Shown here piece after piece: positions 36,831 to 44,830 of a stretch of DNA of 64,000 nt. The translations under genes were made by a program, and so were the position numbers. The notes under the pieces were generated by a model. The model was given only the letters and a program-made list of their open reading frames with translations. It was not told where the DNA came from and did no database searches. The stretch comes from Methanoculleus sp. (GTDB lineage: Archaea > Halobacteriota > Methanomicrobia > Methanomicrobiales > Methanoculleaceae): assembly GCF_030019085.1 (NCBI RefSeq), contig NZ_JASEFJ010000004.1, positions 52,059-116,058 on the forward strand. The letters are read 5' to 3'. How positions within the stretch are numbered: the stretch's first letter is position 1; each line of letters opens with the position of its first letter.

Positions 36831-38867
36831 ATGAACGAGATAGAGACGGACTTGCTTGATGCGGCTATAGAACGCGGCCGCATCAGACTCGATGCACGGC
36901 TGCAAACCCTCTCCGGCAAACCAGAATATCCCGATACCGCATACGCCCTCCCGGTGACCTATGCCCTCACCGGGATTGCCGTTCGTGACGCCGAAGGAGC
37001 GCGTGAAGCATACCGGCAGTCCGGCAACAACCTTCTTGTCGCCTGCGAATGCCTGATGGCTGCTGAAGGAGCGGTTGAACCGCCATACACTGGTTTCATC
37101 CCGGACACCGTTCTCCGGCAGCTCGGCTACACCCTGGTCGACGGTAGCGTCATAGGTCTTGGCCTCATCGTAGGGAGGCCGGAGAGCCCAGATGCGGCCG
37201 CCGCCATCTGCCGGGAGATGCAGGAGAAGTACCTCCTTACCTTCCTCGCCGGCGGCGTGGTGGAGGCGCTCTCCGGTGCCGGTGTCCGGCTGGGACTTGA
37301 GTATCGGTTGGTGCCGCTCGGTCCAGAGAGCGCCCGCGGGATCCATTTCGCTGACATCCTTGCCAGGATTGCTATGATGTTTGGTGGGGTGAAACCCGGG
37401 GACGCCTCTGCCCTTCTCGTCTACGCCGCTGAGAGGGCAAAGGCGTTTGTTATCGTCTTCCCCGGCCTTACCGATGAGGAGATAGCGTTTGTCGACTCAC
37501 TCCGGGCTCTCGGGATGCCTATCCTGACCGTCGACGGGGGTTACCGGGGCGGGGAGTGGATCCCGGTCGCCTCTGGCGAGGCCGTGCAGAAGGGTATGGA
37601 TTTGCGCGGAATACGGGTCACAATTACGGCGATCCCGATCCCGATGGCCTGTTCCCCTGCTTTTGAGGGAAAAAGCATCCGCAAAGAGGAGATGTATGTT
37701 GAGTTTGGCGGCGGTCGGACACCGGCCTTCGAACTCCTCCGGACGCGACCGCGGGAGGAGGTCGAGGACGGCAAGGTCACCGTCATCGGTCCTGAGGTCG
37801 ATGACGTCCCGGCAGGTTCCGCCCTCCCGCTTGCGATCCTGGTGGACGTTGCCGGCGAAAGGATGAAGCCAGACTACGAACCTGTGCTTGAGAGGCGGAT
37901 CCACACCTTCATCAACTACGGTGAGGGGTCCTGGCACGTCGCCCAGCGCGACCTGATCTGGGTCAGGCTATCGAAGGATGCGGTGGCAAAAGGTGTCAGG
38001 ATCCGTGATATCGGGACACTGCTTGCCCACAAACTCAAGATGGAGTTTCCGGATCACATCGAGGCGATCCAGGTGACACTTGTGACCGACAGAGCAAAGG
38101 TCGAGGAACTGCTCCCGCAGGCGCGTGAGATCTATAAGAGGCGGGACGAACGGATTGCCGGGATGAAGGATGACGATGTGGAGGTCTTCTACTCCTGCAC
38201 CCTCTGCCAGACGTTTGCCCCAAACCACGTCTGCATCATAACCCCCGAACGCCCGGCGCTCTGCGGCGCGATCACATGGCTCGATGCCAGGATTGCTCAC
38301 GAGATCACGCCCTCCGGGGCAAACCAGCCGGTTGAGAAGGGGGAGGTGATCGAAGCCCTCCGCGGTGAGTTTGCAGGTGTGAACCGGTTTGTGAAGAAGA
38401 CCTCTCACGGCGAGACCGAACGGGTCTCACTCTACAGCATAATAGACTATCCGATGACCGCCTGTGGGTGTTTTGAGTGTATCGCGGCTATAGTCCCGGA
38501 GGTGAACGGTGTCCTGATCGTGAACCGTGACTACCGGGGGGAGACGCCGCTCGGTATGACCTTCTCGACGCTTGCCGGGACGATCGGGGGCGGTGCGCAG
38601 ACCCCCGGGTTCCTCGGGATAGCGAAGAGTTACATCCTGAGCGAGAGGTTCCTGCAGGCCGAGGGCGGTATTGCCCGGGTGGTCTGGATGCCGACCTCCT
38701 TAAGGGAGGAACTCGGCGACCGGTTGCGGGAGAGGCTTGCAGCGGCGGGGATCCCTGAGATGTATGAGAAGATCGCGGACGAGGTCACGGCACCGACGAT
38801 CGAGGACCTGATCGCGTTCCTCGAACGGGTCGAGCATCCGGCGCTCGCTATGAAACCGCTGATCTGA
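36831..38867 (+). CDS. acsB: Acetyl-CoA synthase, full-length bacterial-type AcsB (CdhC homologue)
   Basis: 678 aa. It makes or cleaves acetyl-CoA at the Ni-Ni-[4Fe-4S] A-cluster from a methyl group, CO and CoA. The six ligands are C456, C459, C468, C478 (CTLCQTFAPNHVC, ALCGA) and C545, C547 (ACGCFEC). Each is exactly 50 residues before the Moorella AcsB positions 506, 509, 518, 528, 595 and 597. Methanogen CdhC is about 470 aa and lacks the N-terminal third; this protein has it (AYALPVTYALTGIAVRDAEGAREAY), the domain that touches CO dehydrogenase in bacteria. First gene of a six-gene operon. No CO dehydrogenase is in the window, so the CO source is unknown. Confidence 0.95.
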   Translation: MNEIETDLLDAAIERGRIRLDARLQTLSGKPEYPDTAYALPVTYALTGIAVRDAEGAREAYRQSGNNLLVACECLMAAEGAVEPPYTGFIPDTVLRQLGYTLVDGSVIGLGLIVGRPESPDAAAAICREMQEKYLLTFLAGGVVEALSGAGVRLGLEYRLVPLGPESARGIHFADILARIAMMFGGVKPGDASALLVYAAERAKAFVIVFPGLTDEEIAFVDSLRALGMPILTVDGGYRGGEWIPVASGEAVQKGMDLRGIRVTITAIPIPMACSPAFEGKSIRKEEMYVEFGGGRTPAFELLRTRPREEVEDGKVTVIGPEVDDVPAGSALPLAILVDVAGERMKPDYEPVLERRIHTFINYGEGSWHVAQRDLIWVRLSKDAVAKGVRIRDIGTLLAHKLKMEFPDHIEAIQVTLVTDRAKVEELLPQAREIYKRRDERIAGMKDDDVEVFYSCTLCQTFAPNHVCIITPERPALCGAITWLDARIAHEITPSGANQPVEKGEVIEALRGEFAGVNRFVKKTSHGETERVSLYSIIDYPMTACGCFECIAAIVPEVNGVLIVNRDYRGETPLGMTFSTLAGTIGGGAQTPGFLGIAKSYILSERFLQAEGGIARVVWMPTSLREELGDRLRERLAAAGIPEMYEKIADEVTAPTIEDLIAFLERVEHPALAMKPLI

Positions 38868-38880
38868 GGAGGAGTTATCT

Positions 38881-39792
38881 GTGAGTGAAAACAGTCCTGA
38901 TAAGTTAGCCATCCGGGAGGTGCGTCTCGGCGCAACACGCGCTGAGGGGGGAACAAGGGAAGTCTCCTACGTTATAGGTGGAGACCGGGGTCTGCCTTTT
39001 TGCGGCAACGATGCCGGCCGACGCCTTGTGGCACTTGAGATCTGCGACGACCCGGCGATCTGGCCGCCGGTCGTTCGCAACTACGTGGGCGACCTTGTAA
39101 ACAACCCCGAGGATTGGGCACAGGCAGCGGAGCGCAGATACGGTGCAGACCTTGTGCGGTTGAACTTTACCAGCACCAAAAAACGAGGGTTTAATGCGTT
39201 CGCAGATATCGCCTCGACAACAGAGCGCGTGCTTGAGGCAACGACCCGTCCCCTGATAATCGAGGGGAGTAACGACCCCCAGGTTGACAGCGAGGTCTTC
39301 CGACGGTGCGGTGAAGCGGGTGAGGGGGAGCGTCTCCTCCTCGGGACGGCAGAGGCCGACAGATACCGGAGCGTCGCCGCTGCGGCGCTGGCATACGGGC
39401 ATCTGGTGATCGCACAGTCGCCCATCGATGTCAACCTGGCCAAACAGTTAAACATCCTCCTCCGCGAGACGGGCGTGCCGGAAGACCGCATAGTGATCGA
39501 CCCCTACACGGGGGCGCTTGGATACGGGTTCGAGTATTCCTACTCGGTGATGGAGCGGATACGTCTTGCCGCGATCGCCGGCGATGACGACCTGGCGATG
39601 CCGATGATCAGCGCTCCTACCGACACACTCTCCATCCGGGAGGTACGGGAGGCCGCACCGGAGGAGCAGGATGCTATGGCGGTCGCATGGGAGTTCTATA
39701 CGGCATACTCCGCCTTTGTTGCCGGGGCTTCGGTCGTCTGCGTACGCCATCCGCTGACCGTGGAGAGACTCAAAAAGGTGCTGGAGGCCTGA
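38881..39792 (+). CDS. acsD: Corrinoid iron-sulfur protein small subunit
   Basis: 303 aa from GTG 38881 with a clear GGAGGAG ribosome site. TIM-barrel methyl-handling subunit of the corrinoid iron-sulfur protein: GTREVSYVIGGDRGLPF, NPEDWAQAAERRYGADLVRLNF, IIEGSNDPQVDSEVF, DPYTGALGYGFEYSYSVMERIRL. The length matches bacterial AcsD rather than the longer archaeal CdhD (about 430 aa). It pairs with AcsC to carry a methyl group between its donor and AcsB. It is 13 bp after acsB and 4 bp before acsC. Confidence 0.93.
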   Translation: MSENSPDKLAIREVRLGATRAEGGTREVSYVIGGDRGLPFCGNDAGRRLVALEICDDPAIWPPVVRNYVGDLVNNPEDWAQAAERRYGADLVRLNFTSTKKRGFNAFADIASTTERVLEATTRPLIIEGSNDPQVDSEVFRRCGEAGEGERLLLGTAEADRYRSVAAAALAYGHLVIAQSPIDVNLAKQLNILLRETGVPEDRIVIDPYTGALGYGFEYSYSVMERIRLAAIAGDDDLAMPMISAPTDTLSIREVREAAPEEQDAMAVAWEFYTAYSAFVAGASVVCVRHPLTVERLKKVLEA

Positions 39793-39796
39793 ACCG

Positions 39797-41131
39797 ATGG
39801 CGATGAAAGCACTTGATATCTATAAACACCTGCCGAAGACGAACTGCAAGAAGTGCGGTTACCCGACCTGCCTGGCCTTCGCCATGAAACTTGCGACGGG
39901 AAAGGCGGATGTTGAGGCCTGCCCTGACCTCGATCCGGGGGCAAAGGCGCTTCTCGGGGGAGTGACAAGGCCGCCGGTAAGGGCGGTCACGATCGGTGCA
40001 GGCGAGCGATCGGTCACCATAGGCGAGGAGTTTGTCCTTTTCAGGCACGAGAAGACCTTCTACCACCCGCCAGGGATCATGGTTGAGGTCTCCGATACCT
40101 GGACTGAGGTGGAGGTGCGATCCGTTGTGGATGAGGTCAGGGAGACGGTCGTCCATCGCGTGGGCCAGGACCTCGTCCTCAACGGTGTGGCGGTGAGAAA
40201 CGAGAGCGGGAGCGCCGACCGGTTCGCAGAGACCGTGAGGCTTGCCGGCGGCGGGAGCAGTCTCCCCCTGGTGCTGATCTCCGACGATCCCACGGCCTTT
40301 GAAGCAGCCCTTGCGATAGCGGGGCAGTACCGGCCGCTGATCCACGCGGCGACCGCTGATAACTGGGAGCCACTGGCCGCGCTTGCAAAACAGTATGGAT
40401 CGCCTCTTGTTGTCCGGGCCGGGACGCCGGCAGACCTCGCTGCCATCACCGCAAAGTGTGCGGAGGCAGGGGTCGCCGACCTGCTGATCGACCCTGCACC
40501 GGGGTCGCTCCAGGGCTATATCACCGTCGCGACCGAGATCCGGAGGAGCGCCATCGAGCGGACGGAACCCGCACTTGGCTACCCGATCTACCTGGACGCA
40601 GGAGCCCTGGGGGAGACCGATGCTGCAGTCGCTACAGGCATCCTGAAGTATGCGGGGATCATCGTCACCCCACGATTCTCCCGTGCCTCACGGGAGGCGG
40701 CGCTCACCCTGCGCCAGAACATCTACACCGACCCGCAGCACCCCATCCAGGTTACGCCCGGGGTCTACCCGATCAACAACCCGGAGCGGGACGCGCCCGT
40801 CCTCCTCACGGTGAACTTCTCGCTCACCTACTTCACGATTGTTGGCTATCTCGAGGCTTCCCGGATGCCCTGCCACCTCCTGATCGTGGATACGGAAGGG
40901 CTCTCGGTTCTAACCTCGGTTGCCGGCGGTAAACTGACGGAGACTATGGTGGCCGATGCTCTAAAGAAGTTTGGCGTCGCCGACCTGGTGGATCACAGGA
41001 TCCTGATCATCCCGGGCTACGCCGCTCCGCTCTCCGGCAAGATCGAGGACGCAACCGGCTGGAAGGTGATGGTCGGACCCAGGGATGCAGCCGATCTCCC
41101 GGAGTACCTCGAGAAGGAGTGGAAGACCTGA
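39797..41131 (+). CDS. acsC: Corrinoid iron-sulfur protein large subunit
   Basis: 444 aa. The N-terminal 4Fe-4S domain is CKKCGYPTC...ACP (C17, C20, C25, C42), which reduces cobalt. The TIM barrel and the C-terminal corrinoid-binding domain follow (INNPERDAPVLLTVNFSLTYFTIVGYL, LIVDTEGLSVLTSVAGGKL). The cobalt carries the methyl group delivered to AcsB. Stop and the next start share one base (TGATG), so it is coupled to the activator gene. Confidence 0.95.
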   Translation: MAMKALDIYKHLPKTNCKKCGYPTCLAFAMKLATGKADVEACPDLDPGAKALLGGVTRPPVRAVTIGAGERSVTIGEEFVLFRHEKTFYHPPGIMVEVSDTWTEVEVRSVVDEVRETVVHRVGQDLVLNGVAVRNESGSADRFAETVRLAGGGSSLPLVLISDDPTAFEAALAIAGQYRPLIHAATADNWEPLAALAKQYGSPLVVRAGTPADLAAITAKCAEAGVADLLIDPAPGSLQGYITVATEIRRSAIERTEPALGYPIYLDAGALGETDAAVATGILKYAGIIVTPRFSRASREAALTLRQNIYTDPQHPIQVTPGVYPINNPERDAPVLLTVNFSLTYFTIVGYLEASRMPCHLLIVDTEGLSVLTSVAGGKLTETMVADALKKFGVADLVDHRILIIPGYAAPLSGKIEDATGWKVMVGPRDAADLPEYLEKEWKT

Positions 41132-43053
41132 TGCCGACGGTGACGTTTCTTCCCGGCTACCGGAAGGTGAGCGTCCCCGAAGGGACAAGCCTACTTGATG
41201 CAGCACGTGCGGCCGGTCTTGCGATGAACGTGGTCTGCGGCGGGCAGGGAAAGTGCGGGAAGTGTCTGGTCTTCGTGAAGACCGGGAGCGTCTCGTTTGA
41301 CCGCGATAAGTTCCGCAAATTCTTCTCTGATCCGGAGATCGCGCGCGGTGCGTGCCTTGCCTGCCAGACGACCGTTACCGGTGACGTCCAGGTAGACGTC
41401 CCTGAAGGATCACTCATTCAGGAGCAGAAGATCCTGGTGGAGATCCAGGGGCTAGAGGAGATCCCGCTCAACCCTGCCGTCAGGAAGTATGAGGTCTACC
41501 TGAGTCCGCCGTCACTCGATGACACCACACCCGACCTCACACGACTGCTGGAAGGGGTTGAAGGGGTGGGTGGACCGCCACCCAACCGTGTCTACGCGCC
41601 GCTTGGCGTCCTCCGCTACCTTCCGCAGGTGCTCCGCCGGAGCGACTGGCACGTGACCGCCACGGTCGCGCTCGTGCCCGGCGGGTACCGACTGAGCAAT
41701 GTGGATGATGGCGACACCACCGGCCGGCTATACGGGGCGGCGGTCGACCTCGGGACCACCACGATCGTGGTCTACCTCTGGAGCCTGGTAGATGGCCGGA
41801 TCCTCTCAACGGCGTCCAACTACAACCGGCAGATCTCCTGCGGCGAGGATATCCTCTCGAGGGTGAACTTCTCCAGGAAGGGTGGTCTTGCACGGTTACA
41901 GCAACTCGCAGCGGAGAGCATAAACGAGGCGCTGAAGAAAGCCGCGGATGCCGCCGGGGTCGATCTTGAGGAGATATTTGAGGTGATGGTTGCCGGAAAT
42001 ACCGTGATGACCCATCTCTTTCTCGGGATCGACCCGGGATACATGATCGCCGAGCCCTACATCCCGGTGGTGCAGCGGATGCTCTCGACGGCCGCCCGAC
42101 GGGTCGGTATCGCGACGCATGAGAACACCGGGATCTACACCTTTCCGGCTGTCTCGAACTTCATTGGCGGCGATGTGATCGCCGATATCCTGGCCACCGG
42201 GATGACGGAACGCGAGGAGGTCACGCTTCTGATCGATATAGGCACGAACTTTGAGGTTGTGCTCGGCAACCGCGACTGGATGCTCTCCTGTTCGGGCGCT
42301 GCCGGCCCCGCCCTCGAAGGCGGGGAGGTGCTGTTTGGGATGCGGGCAAACCCCGGCGCGATAGAGAGCGTCAGGATCGATCCCGAGACACTCACGCCCA
42401 CCTACACAACCATCAACGGTGTGGCGCCCCGTGGTATCTGCGGGTCGGGCCTCATCGATCTGCTTGCGGAGCTGCTCCGCGCCTGTGTAATCGACAGGAC
42501 GGGCGGGATCAACCTTGAGATCGATCACCCCCGGATCAGGAGGGGGCGGTATGCCCCTGAGTTTGTTGTGGCCTGGAAAGAAGAGACACCGATAGGGAAA
42601 GATATCGTCATCACCGAGAACGACATTAAAAACCTCGTAATGAGCAAGGCCGCGATCCACGGCGCCTGCATGACGCTCCTCGATGCAGCAGGTCTGGCAC
42701 CCCGTGATATCGAGAGGGTCTGCTTAACGGGGGCGTTCGGGAACTACATCAACAAGGAGAACGCAATCACGGTCGGGTTGATCCCGGAGGTGCCTCTTGA
42801 ACGTGTGGAGAATATCGGGAACGGCGCGATCACGGGCGCGAACATCGCGCTGGTCAACCGCAAACGGCGGAAAGAACTCGACGGCCTTGCAAGGAGGATC
42901 ACCTACATCGAACTGAACGCCGACCCCTCCTTCATGGACCGCTATACATCTAGCTGTTTCCTGCCGCACACCGATCTTTCGCTATTCCCGCGCGTGCAGC
43001 AGATGCTGGAGGCGTGCAGACTGAGGGAGGGGGTGGGGTCACGACAGGGATGA
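41131..43053 (+). CDS. acsV: AcsV-like corrinoid protein activator (RACo/ASKHA family)
   Basis: 640 aa from ATG 41131 (the GTG at 41119 lies inside acsC). A plant-type 2Fe-2S domain has C36, C42, C45 and further C75/C78 (CGGQGKCGKC, GACLACQT). A linker and an actin/hexokinase-fold ATPase follow (GAAVDLGTTTIVVYLWS, TLLIDIGTNFEVVLGN, VCLTGAFGNYI). Such proteins return inactive Co(II) corrinoid to active Co(I) using ATP. Placement directly after acsC fits activation of the corrinoid protein. Confidence 0.93.
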   Translation: MPTVTFLPGYRKVSVPEGTSLLDAARAAGLAMNVVCGGQGKCGKCLVFVKTGSVSFDRDKFRKFFSDPEIARGACLACQTTVTGDVQVDVPEGSLIQEQKILVEIQGLEEIPLNPAVRKYEVYLSPPSLDDTTPDLTRLLEGVEGVGGPPPNRVYAPLGVLRYLPQVLRRSDWHVTATVALVPGGYRLSNVDDGDTTGRLYGAAVDLGTTTIVVYLWSLVDGRILSTASNYNRQISCGEDILSRVNFSRKGGLARLQQLAAESINEALKKAADAAGVDLEEIFEVMVAGNTVMTHLFLGIDPGYMIAEPYIPVVQRMLSTAARRVGIATHENTGIYTFPAVSNFIGGDVIADILATGMTEREEVTLLIDIGTNFEVVLGNRDWMLSCSGAAGPALEGGEVLFGMRANPGAIESVRIDPETLTPTYTTINGVAPRGICGSGLIDLLAELLRACVIDRTGGINLEIDHPRIRRGRYAPEFVVAWKEETPIGKDIVITENDIKNLVMSKAAIHGACMTLLDAAGLAPRDIERVCLTGAFGNYINKENAITVGLIPEVPLERVENIGNGAITGANIALVNRKRRKELDGLARRITYIELNADPSFMDRYTSSCFLPHTDLSLFPRVQQMLEACRLREGVGSRQG

Positions 43054-44075
43054 TACCGTCCCCAGAACTCAATGCGACGGGGGTCGGGGCGCTCCCCCAC
43101 CGCGACCCCGAGGAGGCCTGCCGGGCGGTGCTTGCTGCGTTTCCCCGCATCCCATACGTGCCCACGCTGCCGAACCGGGGGTTTCTGGAGGGGATAGTCT
43201 TTGCGGACTCCGAGCACCTGCCCGGTGGCGTGATCAGGGACGGCAGACTCGTTGTCGACAGGAGCATCGATCCTTCTGAGGCGATGGAGCGGATCCTGCT
43301 CGACTACCTTGAGGGGAACGTTGAACCCTATGCGGTCGGGAGGGACTACGGTTCCGGGTTTCATGCGATGATGGCCCACGACCTTTCGGGCGCGCTATTG
43401 GTCAAGTGCCAGGTGACCGGCCCGGTCACGTTCGGGATGCAGGTGGTGGATGAGACGCGCCGACCCATCCTCTACGACCCCGAGTACGCCGACCTGCTTG
43501 GAAAACTCCTGGGCCTGCGGGCGCGGTGGTGTGAGGTCGCGATGCGCGAGCGGATGGGGGCCCGGGAGACGCTGGTGGTGCTGAGCGATCCCTATCTCTC
43601 CTCGCTTGGATCATCGGTCGTGCCGGTGGATGCAGGGGTCGCAGAGTCTGCGTTCCAGGATATCGCCGCTCTCCTGGATGGTGGGCTCGGCGTCCACTGC
43701 TGCGCAAACACCGACTGGAGTTTCGTCCTGGGTCTCCGGCCGGCCGTGGTCTCGATCGACGCCTGGACCTACGCACGCGAGTTTCTGCTATACCTCGATG
43801 AGATTGCGGAATACATGGAGGATGGCGGTGTTGTGGCCTGGGGGATCGTCCCGGCTGATTACACCGTCTTTGCCGCGGAGGGTCCAGACTCGTTCTTCTC
43901 CAGGTTTCAGGAGATCCGCGCCCGTGCAACCGGAACCATCGATCCCGGCCTATTTGACCACCAGTCGATGATCACGCCGACCTGCGGGATCAAGACCACG
44001 GGTGTGCGTGAGGCTGTTGCGATCATGGAGGCGACCGCCGCGCTCTCCCGCCGCCTGAGGGGTGAGGAGGTATGA
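43050..44075 (+). CDS. MetE-like core methyltransferase (possible corrinoid-dependent methionine synthase)
   Basis: 341 aa from ATG 43050, an ATGA overlap with acsV. The UROD/MetE barrel is visible from GVGALPHRDPEEACRAVL. Zinc-site residues match MetE: H216-x-C218 (VHCCANTDW), an acidic residue in VVSIDAWTY (Asp where MetE has Glu) and C312 (PTCGIKTTGV). It lacks the N-terminal half of MetE. Small MetE-like enzymes known in some anaerobes take the methyl group from corrinoid proteins to homocysteine; those linked to acsCD genes are termed MesB. That is the favoured reading here. A different methyl acceptor such as another thiol is the alternative. Confidence 0.72.
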   Translation: MIPSPELNATGVGALPHRDPEEACRAVLAAFPRIPYVPTLPNRGFLEGIVFADSEHLPGGVIRDGRLVVDRSIDPSEAMERILLDYLEGNVEPYAVGRDYGSGFHAMMAHDLSGALLVKCQVTGPVTFGMQVVDETRRPILYDPEYADLLGKLLGLRARWCEVAMRERMGARETLVVLSDPYLSSLGSSVVPVDAGVAESAFQDIAALLDGGLGVHCCANTDWSFVLGLRPAVVSIDAWTYAREFLLYLDEIAEYMEDGGVVAWGIVPADYTVFAAEGPDSFFSRFQEIRARATGTIDPGLFDHQSMITPTCGIKTTGVREAVAIMEATAALSRRLRGEEV

Positions 44076-44830
44076 CCCGGCCGTGCACAGTTGTCATATC
44101 CGGGAAAGGCGGGACGGGAAAGACCACGATCTCGGCGCTCCTGATCGACGCAATGGTCAGGGCAGGCGAGCGTCCGATCCTTGCCGTGGATGCCGATCCG
44201 AACGCGAACCTCCACGAGGCTCTCGGGATCACGCTCAACGAGACGCTCGGGAGCATGCGCGAGGAGGCCTTTACCCGCTCCATCCCGCCCGGCATGGACC
44301 GGACAGGCTACATCAGGTACCGGTTTCGCCGGGCGCTTGCGGAGGCGGAGGGCTACGACCTCCTTGCCATGGGACGACCGGAGGGGTCGGGATGCTACTG
44401 TTTCCCAAACGCGCTCCTCACCGAGTGCATCGAGACACTCGAACGCGACTACCGGTATGTCATCGTGGACTCCGAGGCCGGGATGGAACACATAGCCCGT
44501 GGGACGATCAGAAGACCGGATATCCTGCTGATAGCAAGCGATCCTGGTGCCCGGGGGATCCGGACTGCCGACCGCATCCGCGACCTTGCAGAGTCGCTCG
44601 GTCTTGAGCGGGAGAAGGTATTCCTTGTCGTCAACCGTGACCATGGGGACGCTGTTCTCGAGAGCGGTCTCCCGGTTATCGCCAGGATCCCGGAGGACCC
44701 GGCGGTCGATGAGGCAGACCTCGGGGGAACGCCGATCGTCGGTATACCGGAGGAGAGTCCGGCGCGAGCGGCGGTTCGTGACCTCGCCTCCAGGGTGGTC
44801 GAGATCTGTGACCAGAGACGACGGGGATGA
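44072..44830 (+). CDS. CooC/AcsF-type nickel-insertion ATPase
   Basis: 252 aa, 4-bp overlap with the MetE-like gene. P-loop VISGKGGTGKTTISALL with the deviant Walker A lysine, VDADPNANLHEALG, and the metal-binding CYC in GSGCYCFPNALL. CooC ATPases load nickel into CO dehydrogenase and AcsF into acetyl-CoA synthase. With AcsB the only nickel enzyme of the operon seen here, maturation of its A-cluster is the likely job. Confidence 0.9.
   Translation: MTRPCTVVISGKGGTGKTTISALLIDAMVRAGERPILAVDADPNANLHEALGITLNETLGSMREEAFTRSIPPGMDRTGYIRYRFRRALAEAEGYDLLAMGRPEGSGCYCFPNALLTECIETLERDYRYVIVDSEAGMEHIARGTIRRPDILLIASDPGARGIRTADRIRDLAESLGLEREKVFLVVNRDHGDAVLESGLPVIARIPEDPAVDEADLGGTPIVGIPEESPARAAVRDLASRVVEICDQRRRG

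Follow-up and report, generated by a model that had tools for sequence, protein, structure and literature searches.

The acs-mesB operon of Methanoculleus

The window analysed here, a 64-kb stretch of contig NZ_JASEFJ010000004.1 from a Methanoculleus sp. genome assembly (1.91 Mb in 59 contigs, 99.6% complete), carries an operon in which a bacterial-type acetyl-CoA synthase (ACS) and its corrinoid partners are joined by a predicted core methionine synthase. No CO dehydrogenase (CODH) gene accompanies them. The six genes are as follows.

acsB, 36831..38867, + strand: bacterial-type acetyl-CoA synthase of 678 amino acids (aa) with A1 domain; NF040764, PF03598, PF19436
acsD, 38881..39792, + strand: corrinoid iron-sulfur protein (CoFeSP) small subunit, 303 aa; NF003376, 350 bits (cut-off 280)
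acsC, 39797..41131, + strand: CoFeSP large subunit, 444 aa; NF003195, 541 bits (cut-off 306)
acsV, 41119..43053, + strand: RACo-type corrinoid reductive activator, 644 aa; PF14574, PF17651, PF17650, Fer2
mesB, 43050..44075, + strand: core methionine synthase-like protein, 341 aa from ATG 43050, assigned by fold and Zn-ligand pattern
cooC, 44072..44830, + strand: P-loop ATPase, putative AcsB Ni-insertion maturase, 252 aa; PF01656/PF13614

Along the forward strand, 13 bases separate acsB from acsD and 4 separate acsD from acsC; the remaining junctions overlap by 13, 4 and 4, a layout tight enough to be read as one transcription unit. An earlier note on this DNA had described the operon with a metE-like fifth gene; the order holds, and the metE-like gene is mesB, whose start is most likely the ATG at 43050 (in an ATGA overlap with acsV), correcting the earlier call. 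AcsC carries the PF04060 Fe-S motif. AcsV scores 564 bits against NF040756, under that model's cut-off of 800, and CooC is 42.5% identical to the second cooC product of the Natroniella acs operon.

AcsB is of bacterial type

By sequence, AcsB is a bacterial-type ACS with an A1 domain. It scores 904 bits (cut-off 800) against NF040764, the model for bacterial alpha/beta ACS. The six A-cluster cysteines (C456, C459, C468, C478, C545 and C547) have the spacing 3/9/10/67/2 of their Moorella counterparts, C506/509/518/528/595/597, as the earlier note had claimed, and an alignment to the ACS chain of Carboxydothermus is consistent with this. The whole protein aligns with full-length bacterial ACS structures. 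Its N-terminal third, also correctly anticipated, aligns with the A1 domain of bacterial ACS and is missing from the archaeal CdhC of related genomes (462–533 aa). Bacterial ACS structures rank first in a fold search, in which the C. autoethanogenum A1 structure was matched with TMt 0.74–0.76; the AlphaFold2 model is confident in parts only (pLDDT 74, pTM 0.50).

A tree built on the shared A2-A3 region places the long AcsB of Methanomicrobiales in a single group (96/98), with Natroniella, Carboxydothermus and an archaeal CODH-ACS fusion lineage as neighbours, and sets short CdhC apart (100/100) on a long branch. The trees of AcsD and AcsC also separate these proteins from CdhD and CdhE, so that all three proteins fall outside classical CdhC/D/E. 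Nearly all matches in a genome scan belong to Methanomicrobiales, with Natroniella in addition. A recent transfer into this single genome is ruled out by the presence of the operon in several families of the order and by the monophyly of AcsB; the trees cover few bacterial sequences and point to no particular donor or direction of transfer.

Tunnel and alcove residues

AcsB residues were compared with those of Carboxydothermus, C. autoethanogenum, Natroniella and the archaeal fusion, and thus with few bacterial sequences; position numbers follow PMC12289521 (Ile149, Met151, Val152, Trp154) and the F229 primer sequence in PMC11321310. The tunnel Ala (A225 in Carboxydothermus, A222 in Moorella) is replaced by Ile, Leu or Val in 117 of 117 Methanomicrobiales AcsB (L177 in the window), and the Ala three residues further on by Val or Ile, again in 117 of 117 (I180). 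Alcove Ile149 of Carboxydothermus is Tyr in all 116 AcsB that cover the site (Y100). At the A268 site a bulky residue is common (F220) and not diagnostic, the fusion lineage having Ile there. The A-cluster ligands and alcove residues F229 and F512 are retained in every Methanomicrobiales AcsB. PDB entry 8cmw, which surfaced in the AcsB fold search, is an engineered A225L variant; its Moorella counterpart was reportedly made to block the tunnel.

Since position 149 in bacterial ACS is Ile, Leu, Val or Thr (PMC12289521), Tyr is a departure from the bacterial pattern. In the same source Ile149 is proposed to put the Ni-acetyl complex under strain, and the ACS N-terminal domain is described as critical when the reverse reaction cleaves the C-C bond. 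A1 may accordingly have been kept in this clade for cleavage chemistry rather than for docking of CODH.

A CODH fused to an A1-containing ACS occurs in family f7 of the same phylum (genomes G232, G250 and G267), as one frame of about 1380–1400 aa with acsD downstream (L209:1-3618, + strand; L212:1489-5106, − strand; also L210). The C-cluster ligands of the fusion are canonical, and its tunnel position has Ala.

Spread across Methanomicrobiales

Long AcsB was found in several families of the order, and in 63 of the 135 genomes that are at least 90% complete, two of which (G094 and G187) hold it as fragments only. All 63 have MesB, against none of the 72 others. In ten further genomes the short archaeal CdhC, with CdhA, is the only ACS, and MesB is missing from all ten. 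The order acsB-acsD-acsC-acsV-mesB-cooC is constant, with few exceptions, wherever the contig is long enough. Judged on these genomes, the A1-type acs operon is an old, order-wide trait and not a peculiarity of one genome. Its genes are maintained, as dN/dS is 0.03–0.16 in the computable pairs when the window is compared with four other members of the genus.

CO dehydrogenase in the genome and the genus

The window has no cooS, acsA or cdhA, as had been claimed; the genome's matches to PF03063 and TIGR01702 lie on other contigs. Genome-wide profile searches returned no match to PF02552 and only sub-threshold matches to TIGR00314, and found neither CdhA over the cut-off nor CdhB. A search for the prismane family gave one hybrid cluster protein (HCP) gene and one CooS-like fragment. 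The HCP gene (contig C33, L002:1086-2703, + strand) is split into two overlapping frames of 159 and 448 aa by a frameshift or an assembly error.

The CooS-like fragment (contig C21, L003:1-939, − strand) stops after 313 aa, where the contig ends. It scores 309 bits against TIGR01702, and its closest solved relative (310 bits, against 163 for the next) is 7b7q, CODH-V of Carboxydothermus hydrogenoformans. The C-cluster ligand set (H261, C295, C333, C446, C476 and C526) is incomplete, since the equivalent of C295 is Glu (ANIETGQE where the canonical motif is GLCCTGNE), and the acid-base His site is Tyr. The other four cysteines lie past the contig end; full-length homologues in the genus have those four but Glu at 295. 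Replacement of the first C-cluster Cys by Glu was described for structural group D-1 by Inoue et al. (PMC6344411), and ChCODH-V of clade D is stated not to interconvert CO and CO2 (PMC13056359, citing Jeoung 2022). On its residues the C21 gene is of the CODH-V type. The earlier suggestion of a genome without CODH is therefore upheld for cdhA and cdhB and has to be amended for C21: because this gene exists and has lost a C-cluster Cys, the case for no functional CODH rests on residues rather than on absence. The objection that the genome has a CODH after all, and that the finding fails, is ruled out by those same residues.

When 232 genomes of the order were searched with the C21 protein, the matches split into two kinds, the CODH-V type at about 60–100% identity and canonical CooS at about 31–43%. 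All near-full-length matches in the genus are of the CODH-V type, and none of the 35 Methanoculleus genomes, 14 of which have the operon, contains an intact-site CODH. The CODH-V-type gene with its Cys-to-Glu change is common in Methanoculleus (L086–L091) whether or not the acs operon is present, and could be mistaken for CODH. Among 94 genomes without CdhA, canonical CooS is found in 15 of 32 with the operon and 25 of 62 without it (p = 0.66, ignoring kinship, as do all the prevalence statistics), so CODH presence is unrelated to the operon. Seventeen operon genomes have no intact-site CODH at all, four of them single-contig assemblies (G046, G048, G056 and G087). Among the loci examined, only G156 (L098), G211 (L120) and G219 (L103) have a canonical cooS-cooC pair within about 3 kb beyond the operon, and their AcsB has bulky tunnel residues despite it.

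MesB and methionine synthesis

MesB gave no sequence match in Pfam, NCBIfam or the PDB; as neither family collection has a model that matches, mesB is likely annotated as hypothetical in Methanomicrobiales. Its AlphaFold2 model (pLDDT 87) has cobalamin-independent methionine synthases as its 17 top Foldseek matches in the PDB (E down to 1.7e-8), and the related UroD fold is also returned. The Zn-ligand pattern H216, C218, D237 and C312 is invariant, or nearly so, across relatives; its spacing of 2/19/75 compares with 2/19/76 for the ligands 214/216/235/311 of Dehalococcoides mccartyi MesB (PMC7857596). The protein thus has MesB features and is predicted to be a MesB-type core methionine synthase. 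Price et al. (2021) reported MesB in some Methanomicrobiales, with methanogen mesB adjoining acsC/acsD, and predicted that it takes its methyl group from the corrinoid iron-sulfur protein; their threshold for MesB is at least 173 bits to DET0516 (PMC7857596). A second methionine synthase, MesA, is encoded on contig C22, and nearly the whole family has MesA. This rules out MesB as the sole methionine synthase, and methionine need alone cannot explain the operon.

Proposed function

We regard it as plausible, though short of probable, that the operon encodes a stand-alone, CODH-uncoupled ACS whose role is to decarbonylate acetyl-CoA and so provide methyl groups for anabolism. Acetate would enter through acetyl-CoA synthetase, of which the genome encodes two, and at the A-cluster of AcsB acetyl-CoA would be split to yield CoA, CO and a methyl group. 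From there the methyl group would pass to the corrinoid of AcsC/AcsD, held in the active Co(I) state by AcsV, and MesB would transfer it to homocysteine to give methionine. CO would be released or used elsewhere, and CooC would load nickel into AcsB. We infer the direction of the reaction, the acceptor of MesB, the fate of CO and the role of CooC; that all parts are encoded, invariantly linked, under purifying selection and unaccompanied by an intact-site CODH is read from the genomes themselves. Also in favour are the replaced tunnel Ala and alcove Ile beside a retained A-cluster, the reported importance of the N-terminal domain for cleavage, the constant presence of MesB, the lack of acsE and the absence of any relation between CODH and the operon.

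The same parts occur in D. mccartyi, where an AcsB without CODH was proposed to cleave acetyl-CoA, release CO and pass the methyl group via AcsCD to the core methionine synthase (PMC7005905). The earlier note had drawn this comparison, which gains from the MesB features and the exceptionless co-occurrence of MesB with long AcsB. Its suggestion that acetyl-CoA is split for methyl groups is supported by these shared parts and tempered by MesA, the direction being a matter of inference.

Several observations weigh against a decarbonylase. MesA weakens any strict need for an acetyl-CoA-derived methyl group, and since methanogens also make methyl-tetrahydromethanopterin (methyl-H4MPT), acetyl-CoA is not the only methyl source. 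CO, which cleavage would release, can harm hydrogenases. Canonical CooS does occur in some operon genomes, in three of them next to the operon, and the tunnel argument draws on residue comparison with a small number of bacterial sequences.

Synthesis in the opposite direction, with AcsB joining a methyl group (from methyl-H4MPT via AcsCD) to CO of external origin or from another enzyme, would remove CO and make MesB a side branch drawing on the same corrinoid protein. The intact A-cluster, the retained F229 and F512 of the CO alcove and the plentiful methyl-H4MPT of methanogens suit this scheme. AcsE, through which methyl would enter, was not found, a search for it elsewhere in the genome returning only a dihydropteroate synthase-like gene; the constant presence of MesB is left unexplained, and the alcove wall residue is Tyr throughout the clade. 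We consider synthesis unlikely. Less likely still is that MesB is no methionine synthase here and methylates a different thiol, for instance coenzyme M; the operon would then be a minor shunt from acetyl-CoA into methanogenesis. Methionine is already served by MesA, and the UroD fold, to which methylcobamide:coenzyme M methyltransferases belong, is among the MesB matches; the top structural matches, however, are all methionine synthases, and the Zn-ligand spacing is as in D. mccartyi MesB (PMC7857596).

Two further explanations seem to us very improbable. Partial CODH/ACS gene sets in Methanoculleus were read by Nagoya et al. as 'partial deletion' (PMC8621161), and the operon could be a decaying remnant left after loss of CODH, as its patchy presence in 14 of 35 genus genomes might suggest. 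Yet the operon has all its genes and is not of the CdhABCDE type, every ligand is conserved, dN/dS is low as given above, and the same CODH-free gene set recurs in other genera. Nor is there much to commend an undetected active CODH serving AcsB, whether the gene at the end of C21 or one left unassembled. The C21 gene is cut short in an assembly of 59 contigs, and its partial sequence does match TIGR01702; the fragment nevertheless spans both the C295 site (Glu) and the acid-base His site (Tyr), and among operon-bearing relatives assembled as one contig, G056 is without CooS, and G046 and G048 have the CODH-V type alone.

Relation to known systems

A stand-alone ACS with MesB is already known from Dehalococcoides. 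With the incomplete Wood-Ljungdahl route of D. mccartyi the Methanoculleus set shares AcsB, AcsCD, core-MetE/MesB, acetate activation and the lack of CODH and AcsE (PMC7005905, PMC7857596). It differs in that its host is an archaeal methanogen with MesA and methyl-H4MPT in addition, and in the arrangement of its genes in one fixed operon; where the D. mccartyi route has a sole methionine synthase, MesA is found here on contig C22. The tunnel and alcove changes were seen against references other than D. mccartyi AcsB. The Natroniella acetigena operon (cooC-acsA-acsB-acsC-acsV-cooC-acsD-acsE) shares A1-containing AcsB, AcsC, AcsD, AcsV and CooC homologues; unlike such bacterial CODH/ACS operons, that of Methanoculleus lacks acsA and acsE, has gained mesB and has the tunnel Ala and the alcove residue replaced. 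Bacterial ACS is coupled by a tunnel to its CODH partner, and such coupling appears to be lacking here, with no intact-site CODH and no tunnel Ala. The archaeal acetyl-CoA decarbonylase/synthase (CdhABCDE) has the A2-A3 core chemistry and CoFeSP subunit families in common with the operon, but its CdhC, without A1, docks CdhA, whereas the Methanoculleus AcsB has A1 and no CdhA or CdhB, and the AcsB, AcsC and AcsD trees place the two on separate branches.

What appears to be new, within a searchable literature that excludes most subscription papers and may thus conceal an earlier mention, is an intact, order-wide A1-type ACS operon in methanogens that is strictly tied to mesB, independent of CODH and marked by a fixed active-site and tunnel signature. 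In its accessible text, the MesB account of Price et al. (2021) takes up neither the lack of CODH nor the A1-type AcsB, nor the fact that the two genes always occur together across the order (PMC7857596). A structural paper of 2024 states that A1 is missing from the ACSs of all methanogens and all modern archaea and builds evolutionary scenarios on this (PMC11474084); more than 100 Methanomicrobiales AcsB sequences contradict that universal absence.

These AcsB proteins form a clade of natural ACS altered where tunnel mutants were engineered, so that it becomes testable what tunnel, alcove and A1 each contribute to synthesis and to cleavage of acetyl-CoA. It is possible, though less likely than the proposed function, that a dedicated acetyl-CoA decarbonylase evolved in Methanomicrobiales from a bacterial-type ACS by filling the tunnel, placing Tyr in the CO alcove near the catalytic nickel and dispensing with CODH; a hydrogenotrophic methanogen would then draw the methyl group of its methionine from acetyl-CoA and release CO. 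CODH-V-type genes are best left out of any count of CO dehydrogenases, and methanogens scored as partial or deficient in CODH/ACS may hold a complete, different gene set.

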